Source: an uncultured Chthonomonas sp. (GTDB lineage Bacteria > Armatimonadota > Chthonomonadetes > Chthonomonadales > Chthonomonadaceae). From it: a stretch of 36,701 nucleotides of DNA. A program made the position numbers and the translations under genes. Positions 33,403-36,304 of the stretch are shown in pieces. The notes under the pieces were generated by a model. The model made no database searches, had not been told where the DNA came from, and saw only the letters and a list, made by a program, of their open reading frames with translations. Numbering within the stretch: position 1 is the stretch's first letter; each line of letters starts with the position of its first letter. The stretch covers positions 1 to 36,701 of the forward strand of contig CAIONQ010000097.1 in assembly GCA_903859705.1 (NCBI GenBank), in the 5' to 3' direction.

Positions 33403-33767
33403 CCACGTAATCCTTAGAACCAGCGATGCTATACATAGTTTCTATGCAACCGGGATCGTGCCCTGCTGTTAGAATGCAAATGGGAATCGGGAGTCGTTAA
33501 CACAGGGAGGCCCCGGGTGCCGTATAGGCTCCCGGGTCGCCCGGATGATAAACCATACTTCCGGAGGCGCGTATCCATCTCCTCTCCAGGTTCCGTGTAC
33601 TCTCCGCGTTGCAGGGTTCCCTTGGCCGCCCGCGCTTGTGCGGGGTTCAAGGCCGTACGGTAGGAGGCAAGCGGTAAAAGGGGCATCATATAAACCAAAC
33701 TCCACCAACAAAACAAAAGTACAGACCACTCAACACAAAAAACAAAAAATCTAATAATAAAAATAAC
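33403..33767. other. Non-coding stretch between the sugar operon and the leader region
   Basis: No real gene; a minus-strand open frame from 33812 to 33429 has no ribosome binding site and overlaps a hairpin and an A-rich tract. It contains the hairpin CCCGGG-T-GCC-GTATA-GGC-T-CCCGGG (33512-33536), a diverged copy of the 19-bp motif at 33561-33575, and from ~33690 an A-rich stretch leading into the promoter at 33768. Confidence 0.55.
33512..33536. repeat. GC-rich stem-loop
   Basis: CCCGGG (33512-33517) pairs with CCCGGG (33531-33536), a T-T mismatch, then GCC (33519-33521) with GGC (33527-33529) around loop GTATA. It lies 110 bases upstream of the start of the aldo/keto reductase, whose gene runs on the minus strand. 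Function unclear. Confidence 0.55.
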
Positions 33768-33796
33768 TTGACATCTTTTATAGCCTGTGGTAGCAT
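33700..33796 (+). promoter_or_regulatory. Strong sigma-70-type promoter with A-rich upstream tract
   Basis: TTGACA (33768-33773) is a perfect -35. A 17-bp spacer leads to TAGCAT (33791-33796, 4/6), preceded by TGG, an extended -10. Upstream, 33700-33767 is extremely A-rich, like an UP element. The expected start site (~33803) coincides with the first base of a stem-loop. This is the best promoter in the window. Confidence 0.7.
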
Positions 33797-33802
33797 TCGC
33801 CA

Positions 33803-34149
33803 TCTTTTGCACTAACAGCGCAAAAGAAATGCGCTAACGGCGCGCTCTGGATAGCAGTGCCATGTTGTAAGCACTTATTCTGGATGGCGCTGCTGGTTCT
33901 CCTGCCCATGTCGGCACAAAGAACCGTAACCGGAAATCGAACAGGCCTGCTGTAAAGTAAGTCACAACAGGGAGTAATTCTGTTCATTGCCGTGGGATAA
34001 AAACGCATCACATCGATGCACTGGCTTCCGTTCCCGACGACGGCAGCTTGCGAGGGATTAAGCAGTACCCTTTTGTTTAGTGTCGGTATTACCCGGAGCC
34101 CCGATGGCTCAAATGCTCGCCATCGGCACAGTAAGGAAAGGTTGCCACT
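33803..34149 (+). promoter_or_regulatory. Long structured leader RNA (~347 nt) or small RNA before a Cys-rich peptide gene
   Basis: Between the promoter and the GTG at 34150 are at least six perfect or near-perfect stems. TCTTTTGC/GCAAAAGA (33803-33810, 33820-33827). AGCAGTGCCAT/ATGGCGCTGCT (33853-33863, 33884-33894; one G-U). GGTTCT/AGAACC (33895-33900, 33920-33925) enclosing TGCC/GGCA. TGCCGT/ACGGCA (33988-33993, 34040-34045) enclosing GCATC/GATGC (34005-34009, 34015-34019). CCGATGGC/GCCATCGG (34101-34108, 34119-34126). I do not recognise a known riboswitch, tmRNA, RNase P or 6S RNA. It could be a regulatory leader or a separate ncRNA. Confidence 0.55.
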
Positions 34150-34152
34150 GTG
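34127..34152 (+). promoter_or_regulatory. Hairpin enclosing the ribosome binding site and containing the GTG start codon
   Basis: CACAGT (34127-34132) and ACTGTG (34147-34152) form a 6-bp stem. The loop holds AAGGAAAGG (34133-34141), the Shine-Dalgarno sequence, and the last three bases of the stem are the GTG start codon. Formation would hinder translation of the Cys-rich gene. It directly adjoins the stem at 34101-34126. Confidence 0.5.
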
Positions 34153-34392
34153 AAAGACTGCCTCAAGTACTTCGTGATTGGAATGTGCCTTGCAATGCCG
34201 ATCATCGGAATCGCGCAAACTCCCGTTGCTCCGTTAGTTGCCGCCCCCGCCTGCTGCATGCAGTGTGGAAACAGCGCAAGCGTATCGCAGTGCACCCGGT
34301 TCTGCAGCACAGAAGCAGAATCATGTTGCAGTATCTCCACAACCAACTGCAATAACTGCCAGAACTACTGCCAGACAAAACCCAACCCCTGA
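34150..34392 (+). CDS. Small secreted cysteine-rich peptide
   Basis: 80 residues from GTG at 34150, with AAGGAAAGG at 34133-34141 (8-9 base spacing). Residues 1-23 are a signal peptide (CLKYFVIGMCLAMPIIGIAQ). The mature part (about 57 residues) is Ala/Pro-rich at first and then has ten cysteines: CC and C in ACCMQC, then QC, FC, SCC, NC, NNC and NYC. The remaining residues are mostly S, T, N and Q. The spacing suggests a disulfide-rich, compact secreted peptide or metal-binding protein. I recognise no family. It has its own strong promoter, a long structured leader and an intrinsic terminator that overlaps its stop codon, so it is a single-gene transcript of about 630 nt. A DsbA-like oxidoreductase gene lies 1.3 kb downstream. 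Confidence 0.7.
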   Translation: MKDCLKYFVIGMCLAMPIIGIAQTPVAPLVAAPACCMQCGNSASVSQCTRFCSTEAESCCSISTTNCNNCQNYCQTKPNP

Positions 34393-34434
34393 TACAACAG
34401 CCCCGGCGACAGCACAGATCGCAAGGGGTTTTTT
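34384..34434 (+). terminator. Intrinsic terminator of the Cys-rich peptide gene
   Basis: AACCCCT (34384-34390) pairs with AGGGGTT (34424-34430), with an inner GCGA/TCGC stem (34406-34409, 34419-34422). Six T residues (34429-34434) follow. The left arm includes the last codons and overlaps the stop TGA (34390-34392). This is the clearest intrinsic terminator of the window. Confidence 0.7.
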
Positions 34435-34556: not shown

Positions 34557-35087
34557 ATGCCTGAAAACAATAAAAGAATAGCGGTGTCTCTGGTGGCTGG
34601 GCTCTCACTTACGTTAACCGGCTACTTCACCTGGAGACACTACTTCAAGATTGATGAAAACACGGTGCGGGTTTCAAAGGTTCTAAAAGTAGAACCACGA
34701 GAACTGAAAACCGTCTTCGACATCCAGGATAAAATCATCCGTGGAGAAGCATTTACAGATGCCGACTGGCAGCGCTTGCTCCCGCTGATTAAAGGCAGCA
34801 ATGCCGAGATGTCCGGCAATGCACTGGTAGTTTTGGGAAGCCTGGAAAACACAAAATTCAGACAACAGTCGGTGGATGTTGCACGAGGCTACCTCGCAGG
34901 CCCTAACGACCTGCAACGCAGCACCTCTCTCTCCATTCTATGGCGCATGGGCGCGCCAGATTGGAAGCAGGCGGCTACACAGTTAAAATCAGACCCAAGC
35001 GTAGAAGTACGAAAACACGCCGAGAATTTGCTCGCCATGGGCGAACATGTTAGAAAGCAGAACCCAACCAATGGCAAAAACCTGTAG
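34557..35087 (+). CDS. Membrane-anchored orphan with HEAT-like helices
   Basis: 176 residues from ATG at 34557, with AGGAG eight bases upstream; a start at 34461 lacks a ribosome binding site. A single N-terminal membrane helix (IAVSLVAGLSLTLTGYFTW, residues ~8-26) anchors it. The rest is helical and outside: DWQRLLPLIKGSNAEMSGNALVVLGSL, then SVDVARGYLAG, and near the end LKSDPSVEVRKHAENLLAM. This looks like short HEAT-type repeats, a protein-binding scaffold. Its 3' end overlaps the start of the prepilin gene by 17 bases (35071-35087), so the two are translationally coupled. It begins the operon that ends with the DsbA-like gene. Exact function unknown. Confidence 0.75.
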   Translation: MPENNKRIAVSLVAGLSLTLTGYFTWRHYFKIDENTVRVSKVLKVEPRELKTVFDIQDKIIRGEAFTDADWQRLLPLIKGSNAEMSGNALVVLGSLENTKFRQQSVDVARGYLAGPNDLQRSTSLSILWRMGAPDWKQAATQLKSDPSVEVRKHAENLLAMGEHVRKQNPTNGKNL

Positions 35088-35703
35088 AAGCGGCTTCACA
35101 CTGGTCGAGATGCTGGTGGTGCTGGCCGTTCTCGGGATACTTTGCGCAGTGCTTATCCCTGTATTTGCTCAGGCACGTGCCAAATCCCGACAGAGTGTTT
35201 GCATCTCGAACCTTAAACAACTGGGCGCAGCGGTAACAATGTACGCAGCAGATTATGACGATAGGCTACCGTATGCTGAAGACATGAGCGATAAACTTGC
35301 CGTGGCGAAGGGCGCCCAGGCTGCACCGCCTTCCTGGCCCAACCTTGCAGATATCCGCACAGTGCTCTTGCCTTACAAGGCGGCGCCGGAGTTGTATCGC
35401 TGTCCGCAGGATCATGTAACTTCACAGGTGTCGGCGGTTTTGGGCGGCAAGGCATCCTGGTACGAGTACTGCGGCAGCAGTTACTACTACGAACAGGATA
35501 TTGCGCTGGAAGGGCAAACCCTCTCCGGCTTCGCTCGGCCATCCGAATCCATGTTGTTCTTCGATTATCAGGCATTCCACTCCGGCATGGTAAGCGCAAG
35601 CTTTGCAGATGGCCACGCAAAGGCCCATACCTATGCAGATTGGAACCACCTGGTTTGCATAACCGATCCCGATGCAGGAGGATGCGAAAATGCGCAGAAT
35701 TAA
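35071..35703 (+). CDS. Type IV prepilin-like protein (armatimonad DUF1559-type)
   Basis: 210 residues from ATG at 35071 (leader MAKTCRSG); ATG at 35047 is the alternative, with a 16-residue leader. Neither has a good ribosome binding site, and both overlap the upstream gene. The prepilin signature is unmistakable: cleavage after G in SGFTLVEMLVVLAVLG with the Glu at +5. This is followed by CAVLIPVFAQARAKSRQSVC and SNLKQLGAAVTMYAADYDD, a form typical of Armatimonadota. Four cysteines are in the C-terminal half (for example YRCPQD, YEYCGSS, CENAQN). The ADGHAKAHTYADW motif near the end is the H-x9-DG-like tail. It would be exported, cleaved by a prepilin peptidase (not seen here) and built into a pseudopilus or surface fibre. 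Its stop overlaps the start of the DsbA-like gene. Confidence 0.9.
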   Translation: MAKTCRSGFTLVEMLVVLAVLGILCAVLIPVFAQARAKSRQSVCISNLKQLGAAVTMYAADYDDRLPYAEDMSDKLAVAKGAQAAPPSWPNLADIRTVLLPYKAAPELYRCPQDHVTSQVSAVLGGKASWYEYCGSSYYYEQDIALEGQTLSGFARPSESMLFFDYQAFHSGMVSASFADGHAKAHTYADWNHLVCITDPDAGGCENAQN

Positions 35704-36304
35704 CGCCATTATCGCAGCCCTGGTGCTGCTCGAAACAGCGGCTTACGGCGGGTATCGAGTGTATGCATCCCACAATGGGCCAGAGGTGCCAGAGGTGCAT
35801 GTGCCAACAACCATGGCAATTGGCGAGGCACCGGTGTTTCTTGGCAAAGCAGAAGCAAGATACACCCTCGTAGAGTTTGGGGATTACCAGTGCCCGCCGT
35901 GCGCGGCGGCGGCACCGGCAGTCGAAAAACTGATAGACCAGAGCCAGGGAAAACTCAAATTTGTGTTTCGGCAATACCCACTGCCATTTCATGAAAAAGC
36001 ACACGAAGCGGCGGTGGCGGCCCTCAGTGCAAAAGAGGCAGGCAAATACTACCCGGTACACAGGGCACTATATGCACTGAACACAAAAGTTGATACCGGC
36101 AAGATAGCGCAGATCCTGAAAGAAGCAGGGGTAACGTCAGTTACGGCAAAAGCCACAGCCACAGCAGAAGAACAGCTGCTTGCCACGAAAAGAGATGGCG
36201 ACGCCATGAGTTTAGTCGGCACCCCATCCTTCTTCCTGTGCACACCCGCTGGCATCATCTACCGGCTCACCGGCCCCGAGCAAGCAACGGCATTGATGCG
36301 ATAA
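35690..36304 (+). CDS. DsbA-like periplasmic thiol oxidoreductase
   Basis: 204 residues; ATG at 35690 with GGAGG (35677-35681) 8 bases before it. The start lies inside the end of the prepilin gene (stop at 35703). An N-terminal hydrophobic segment (INAIIAALVLLETAAYGGY) works as an anchor or signal. The thioredoxin-fold part starts near residue 60: TLVEFGDYQCPPCAAAAP has the active site CPPC. Next come KLKFVFRQYPLPFHEKA and, near the C-terminus, the cis-proline loop GTPSFFL. This layout is that of DsbA/BdbD-like or DsbG-like exported thioredoxins (thioredoxin_4 family). Role: make or repair disulfides in exported proteins. Candidate clients nearby are the prepilin-like protein (four cysteines) and the Cys-rich peptide at 34150. 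Confidence 0.9.
   Translation: MRRINAIIAALVLLETAAYGGYRVYASHNGPEVPEVHVPTTMAIGEAPVFLGKAEARYTLVEFGDYQCPPCAAAAPAVEKLIDQSQGKLKFVFRQYPLPFHEKAHEAAVAALSAKEAGKYYPVHRALYALNTKVDTGKIAQILKEAGVTSVTAKATATAEEQLLATKRDGDAMSLVGTPSFFLCTPAGIIYRLTGPEQATALMR

Follow-up and report, generated by a model that had tools for sequence, protein, structure and literature searches.

A Conserved Gene Cassette in Armatimonadota Encoding a Putative Secreted Cysteine-Rich Peptide with a DsbA-Like Protein and Envelope Partners

Organization of the Locus

Armatimonadota is a little-studied bacterial phylum. We analyzed a stretch of 36,701 nt from an uncultured Chthonomonas sp. (contig CAIONQ010000097.1 of assembly GCA_903859705.1, forward strand), hereafter called the window. 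A first-pass annotation had described a strong promoter, a long structured leader, a small secreted peptide, and a terminator near its 3' end as one isolated transcript. The features considered here are as follows.

33712–33767, + strand: A-rich tract in the sequence, possibly acting like an UP element
33768–33796, + strand: sigma-70-type promoter motif, TTGACA-N17-TAGCAT, with an extended -10 TG and the A-rich tract directly 5'
33803–33827, + strand: near-perfect 25-nt inverted repeat, TCTTTTGCACTAACAGCGCAAAAGA, at the probable transcript start
33803–34149, + strand: putative 5' leader, 347 nt, without conservation in other cassettes and without a strong structural signal
34133–34141, + strand: Shine-Dalgarno-like sequence, AAGGAAAGG, 8 nt before the GTG
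34150–34392, + strand: gene 1, predicted secreted Cys-rich peptide of 80 aa, GTG start, hydrophobic N-terminus, ten mature cysteines
34399–34434, + strand: hairpin plus T6 after gene 1, predicted from the sequence fold to be an intrinsic terminator, probably partial
34557–35087, + strand: gene 2, HEAT-like protein of 176 aa, one N-terminal transmembrane helix, helical model
35071–35703, + strand: gene 3, pilin-like protein of 210 aa with N_methyl and DUF1559 profile matches, overlapping gene 2
35672–36304, + strand: gene 4, membrane-anchored DsbA-like/Thioredoxin_4 protein with CPPC and cis-Pro, overlapping gene 3

The near-consensus extended promoter behind an A-rich tract, the stem-loop on its 3' side, the 80-residue open reading frame whose hydrophobic N-terminus precedes ten cysteines, and the intrinsic terminator had all been reported before, and each of them was found again. 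The description of the transcript as isolated proved wrong, since three co-directional genes (34557–36304), which overlap one another and are conserved together with the peptide gene, follow immediately downstream.

As a motif alone the promoter is unremarkable, and its position is what counts: over both strands of the 36.7 kb, chance predicts 0.8 TG-bearing matches of this quality, and one was found. In the 6.2-Mb genome the extended motif is present three times, and because one of these copies lies upstream of tRNA-Phe, a housekeeping type of promoter is plausible. The inverted repeat at 33803–33827 (fold z -5.7) is the one notable element of the leader and may be a 5' stabilizing hairpin or an operator; a role as the operator of a regulon was rejected, as the palindrome occurs only once in the genome. 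The segment 33480–33680, which lies between the A-rich tract and the divergent aldo/keto reductase gene, is G+C-rich and contains several short palindromes; an Rfam scan of the upstream region including this segment gave no match.

A Family of Cysteine-Rich Peptides

None of the Pfam or NCBIfam families covers the peptide, and the peptide used by itself as the query had no match in viral contigs, in phages, or in the genome collection. The sole direct homolog found at first was that of genome G016 (E 2.8e-5), and an alignment search of the genome collection with a close subset of peptides detected three loci. Conservation of the peptide's cysteines among homologs, on which the first-pass annotation had staked its reading, was borne out: five cysteines are invariant in an alignment of 13 peptides. 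Their spacing also recurs far beyond expectation. CX3C-X4-20-CX3C is present in 18 of 19 peptides (the window peptide and 17 of its 18 relatives) against 1.3 expected when mature residues are shuffled, CX3CX3C likewise in 18 (2.8 expected), and CX2CCX3C in 12 (0.4 expected), the 19 peptides being relatives and hence not independent cases.

The mature peptides have 6–10 cysteines, often with CC pairs (13–20% cysteine), and few His. Their net charge, calculated for twelve peptides, ranges from +2 to -6 and is mostly neutral to acidic. The AlphaFold model of the window peptide, which is weak (pLDDT 67), contains helices at 45–54, 56–62, and 64–74, and Foldseek found no match to this model in the PDB. 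Considering that the cysteines are conserved and that the cassettes also encode disulfide oxidoreductases, the peptide is, judging from its sequence, a real and conserved secreted peptide of the disulfide type.

In two sister genomes, G193 and G192 (L099 and L100), the peptide genes are interrupted close to the last CX3C by premature stops that differ between the two; one is a TGA exactly at the first cysteine codon of this motif. These stops may represent decay or assembly error, or conceivably recoding.

Partner Genes

The first partner, the HEAT-like protein, matches the HEAT family PF13646 at an E value of 0.046, which is below the cut-off. Its model is helical with a pLDDT of 91, and Foldseek comparison with the PDB yielded helical-repeat neighbors, the best of which are artificial HEAT-like alphaRep proteins (E ~0.02). 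By its predicted structure, the protein resembles a binding scaffold.

The second partner contains the N-terminal methylation motif and DUF1559, with 32.9 and 33.6 bits (cut-offs 21.2 and 23.3, respectively). Some phyla have very large numbers of DUF1559 pilin-like proteins, whose function is not settled.

The product of gene 4 matches PF13462 (5.6e-16) and PF01323 (8.8e-11) and has the features expected of a DsbA-like thioredoxin, namely the fold profile, CxxC, cis-Pro, and an N-terminal membrane anchor. Because CxPC and the cis-proline are kept in all ten DsbA-like proteins of the cassettes, these proteins should be active oxidoreductases.

Distribution of the Cassette in Armatimonadota

We searched 291 Armatimonadota genomes with a profile of the HEAT-like protein and, separately, with one of the peptide. 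The search for the peptide in other members of the phylum, which had been suggested earlier, was successful: 22 matches below 1e-4 were obtained in 21 genomes (three families). The HEAT-like gene adjoins the peptide gene in all 22 matches, although it is decayed by in-frame stops in G086, and the pilin-like gene lies behind the HEAT-like gene in all of them except G053 and G147. Twelve of the 22 peptides had seeded the profile, and the independent new cases are those of G086, G054, G140, G173, and G077; these peptide-first matches also carry partner genes. The two search routes are thus concordant.

The order peptide, HEAT-like, pilin-like, and DsbA-like is found in the window, in contig C119 of the same genome, and in seven other genomes (G016, G013, G005, G003, G140, G086, and G143). 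G016 has the same three partner genes in the same order as the window, and the genes upstream differ (aldo/keto reductase in the window, fucosidase in G016), which argues that the cassette is a conserved unit. Tandem cassettes are present in G143 (L139), each with peptide, HEAT-like, and pilin-like genes, the second copy being devoid of a DsbA-like gene. ECF-type sigma factors flank the cassette of G003 (L138) on both sides; the one behind the DsbA-like gene matches PF08281, and the divergent one was judged by appearance only. A published description of the four-gene cassette was not found in the libraries searched.

In G147 (L125:4565-5629), a gene for VKOR, a further type of disulfide-forming enzyme (PF07884, 5.4e-15), follows the peptide and HEAT-like genes and replaces both the pilin-like and the DsbA-like genes. 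A DsbA-like gene was not recognized next door in G002, G175, G186, G054, G173, and G077, and oxidation in such cassettes must have another source. Two further loci of the window's own genome have no detectable peptide gene: C28 (L129) contains HEAT-like, pilin-like, and DsbA-like genes, and C120 (L130) contains the HEAT-like and pilin-like genes only, beside tRNA-Phe. These are perhaps decayed or peptide-free versions of the cassette, and they imply that the partner proteins may have some function independent of the peptide.

Hairpins were also observed in the gap between the peptide and HEAT-like genes elsewhere. The gap of G016 (L131:5905-6050) contains a very stable double hairpin (z -5.6); here, as in the paralogous cassette on C119, the T-run seen in the window is absent. 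The hairpins of these three gaps fit a peptide mRNA that exceeds the mRNA of the remaining genes.

Possible Function of the Cassette and Alternative Explanations

With somewhat better than even confidence, we propose that the four genes form an operon for the production of an exported mini-protein rich in disulfides, which is oxidized by its own DsbA-like enzyme and served by envelope partners. What the sequences themselves show is the gene order and its recurrence, the cysteine pattern, the oxidoreductase's catalytic motif, and the gap hairpins. The housekeeping-type promoter would drive a transcript with the peptide as its first gene, and the hairpin-terminator behind that gene would stop most transcripts, so that the peptide would outnumber its partner proteins. 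After export, presumably by Sec, the peptide may adopt a small helical-hairpin fold, held together by disulfides between the two CX3C motifs. The membrane-anchored DsbA-like enzyme of the cassette would insert these disulfides and be reoxidized by a VKOR-type partner; considering that the DsbA-like motifs are kept and that VKOR is encoded in one cassette, oxidative folding of the peptide is the simplest reading of the gene context. The HEAT-like and pilin-like proteins might form an envelope complex which holds, assembles, or displays the peptide.

The presence of an N_methyl/DUF1559 protein in nearly every cassette, together with a HEAT-like scaffold bearing a transmembrane helix, may also suggest that the cassette belongs to a machine of the type IV pilus or type II secretion kind. 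It would then supply a minor pseudopilin, a scaffold, and an oxidase, and the peptide would be a small structural or adaptor subunit. However, no pilus ATPase, platform protein, or secretin was recognized in the list of open reading frames from the extended loci, and DUF1559 pilin-like genes, being numerous elsewhere, may act alone. We consider membership in such a machine fairly unlikely.

Another explanation is that the peptide is secreted for antimicrobial or competitive purposes, as a bacteriocin-, alpha-hairpinin-, or defensin-like molecule with its own folding enzyme. A small, secreted, disulfide-rich, fast-evolving peptide that is patchy in distribution and present in multiple copies would suit such a role, and a PDB profile search that weakly linked the peptide to BWI-2c, a plant alpha-hairpinin (E 0.76), points in the same direction. 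On the other hand, the mature peptides are mostly neutral to acidic (+2 to -6), their constant partners are pilin-like and HEAT-like proteins, and no immunity gene, dedicated ABC exporter, or peptidase was recognized in the nearby open reading frames, unlike the situation in actifensin operons (PMC6989792). Because the charge and the absence of recognized export and immunity genes fit poorly, an antimicrobial role appears unlikely, and we favor a function in structure or display alongside the pilin-like protein.

The first-pass annotation had placed the main interest in the leader, which it took to be a regulatory RNA. If so, the 347 nt would form a structured cis-regulatory RNA (a riboswitch or similar) controlling an independent peptide gene, and the strong promoter at its 5' edge, its moderate fold (z -2.7 against its own shuffles), and the striking 5' hairpin (z -5.7) are all compatible with that idea. 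Several observations argue against it. The Rfam search that had been recommended, carried out with covariance models on the window, the leader, and the upstream region, gave nothing at gathering score; the only matches had E values of 1.5–9, and even at an E value of 10 none rose above noise. The fold is neither exceptional nor strand-specific: approximately 11 of 104 equal-length control stretches of the window fold as low as z -2.7 (18 of 104 reach the leader's value from that same run, which used fewer shuffles), and a fold just as stable is obtained for the reverse complement (z -3.2).

Conservation of the leader in homologs, which the same reading implied, was likewise not observed among the cassettes compared. 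BLASTN and nhmmer detected no similarity to the leader upstream of 18 other cassettes, and a DNA search for its relatives in 61 genomes returned chance matches only. Promoter-like sites lie just 24–82 nt before the peptide start codon in G186, G147, G005, and G012, and 256 nt before the peptide gene in G013. Other open reading frames in the leader, on both strands, matched no Pfam family; one of them (34016–34153), whose end takes in the GTG start, was a candidate for a coupling peptide and was dropped for want of a Shine-Dalgarno sequence and a homolog. A regulatory RNA at this position is thus very unlikely. We take the leader to be an ordinary, non-conserved long 5' untranslated region, whose 5' hairpin perhaps stabilizes the mRNA; a lineage-specific element is conceivable. 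The comparison with homologs, which the cysteines passed and the leader failed, speaks for the peptide and counts against the leader. What makes the finding worthwhile is the conserved cassette, the sequence features having been right, the isolation wrong, and the regulatory RNA unsupported.

Finally, of the two properties originally offered for the peptide, the disulfide-rich one is supported by the conserved cysteines and the cassette oxidoreductases, whereas an extracellular metal-binding, metallothionein-like peptide without disulfides, as 13–20% cysteine with CXXC and CC pairs might suggest, is highly improbable given the predicted export to an oxidizing compartment, the DsbA-like or VKOR oxidants of the cassettes, a conserved CX3C spacing suited to helix-pairing disulfides, and the scarcity of His.

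Comparison with Known Systems

The cysteine spacing is reminiscent of the alpha-hairpinins, plant antimicrobial and protease-inhibitor peptides that are defined by CX3C-X4-20-CX3C and include a 6C form, CX3CX3C-X4-20-CX3CX3C (PMC11591084). The twin CX3C spacing is shared by 18 of the 19 cassette peptides, that of G016 exactly fits the 6C form, and the weak model of the window peptide (pLDDT 67) is helical. Unlike the plant peptides, those of the cassettes are bacterial, have 6–10 mature cysteines, often with CC pairs, and are mostly neutral or acidic. Matches of the peptide to BWI-2c and vicilin hairpinins in PDB sequence-profile searches had E values of 0.5–0.8, which do not establish a profile relationship. 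The likeness, assessed at the level of sequence, is therefore one of motif, and homology is not established.

Defensin-like bacteriocins such as actifensin and laterosporulin (PMC6989792) are likewise small, secreted, disulfide-rich bacterial peptides encoded in operons. They differ in having another cysteine spacing, ABC exporters in the operon, and a beta-sheet fold, whereas a helical fold is predicted for the cassette peptide. The Cxxx spacing also recalls NCBIfam TIGR04117 (Syntroph_Cxxx), a Cys-Xaa-Xaa-Xaa repeat target of radical-SAM enzymes, which weakly matched 2 of 13 relatives (best 0.0021); however, the cassette peptides appear to be secreted and are accompanied by disulfide enzymes. 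A radical-SAM target was dropped as an explanation, as the window peptide itself has no match to TIGR04117 and no radical-SAM gene was recognized in the open reading frames of the extended loci.

Gene 4 resembles DsbA/Thioredoxin_4 proteins in its matches to PF13462 and PF01323 and in keeping CxPC and cis-Pro, and the VKOR gene of one cassette extends the parallel with DsbA/VKOR systems. The difference is that the cassette enzyme is encoded beside one small substrate-like peptide and pilin-like and HEAT-like genes.

Gene 3 matches both DUF1559 (PF07596, SBP_bac_10) and N_methyl. DUF1559 proteins mainly form large stand-alone families, with 74 genes in Rhodopirellula baltica (PMC2754498), whereas gene 3 is fixed in a cassette. 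It is possible, and we suggest it tentatively, that the peptides are a new bacterial family of alpha-hairpinin-like disulfide mini-proteins, that a dedicated envelope cassette found across Armatimonadota produces and positions them by means of a DsbA- or VKOR-type oxidant, a HEAT-like scaffold, and a DUF1559 pilin-like carrier, and that this is the first specific role for a DUF1559 pilin-like protein. A cassette in which such a protein accompanies a defined, substrate-like peptide gives a starting point for work on DUF1559 function, and what had been an orphan small open reading frame can now be tested as a set of genes, in which the peptide is joined by its probable oxidant and by two constant envelope partners.
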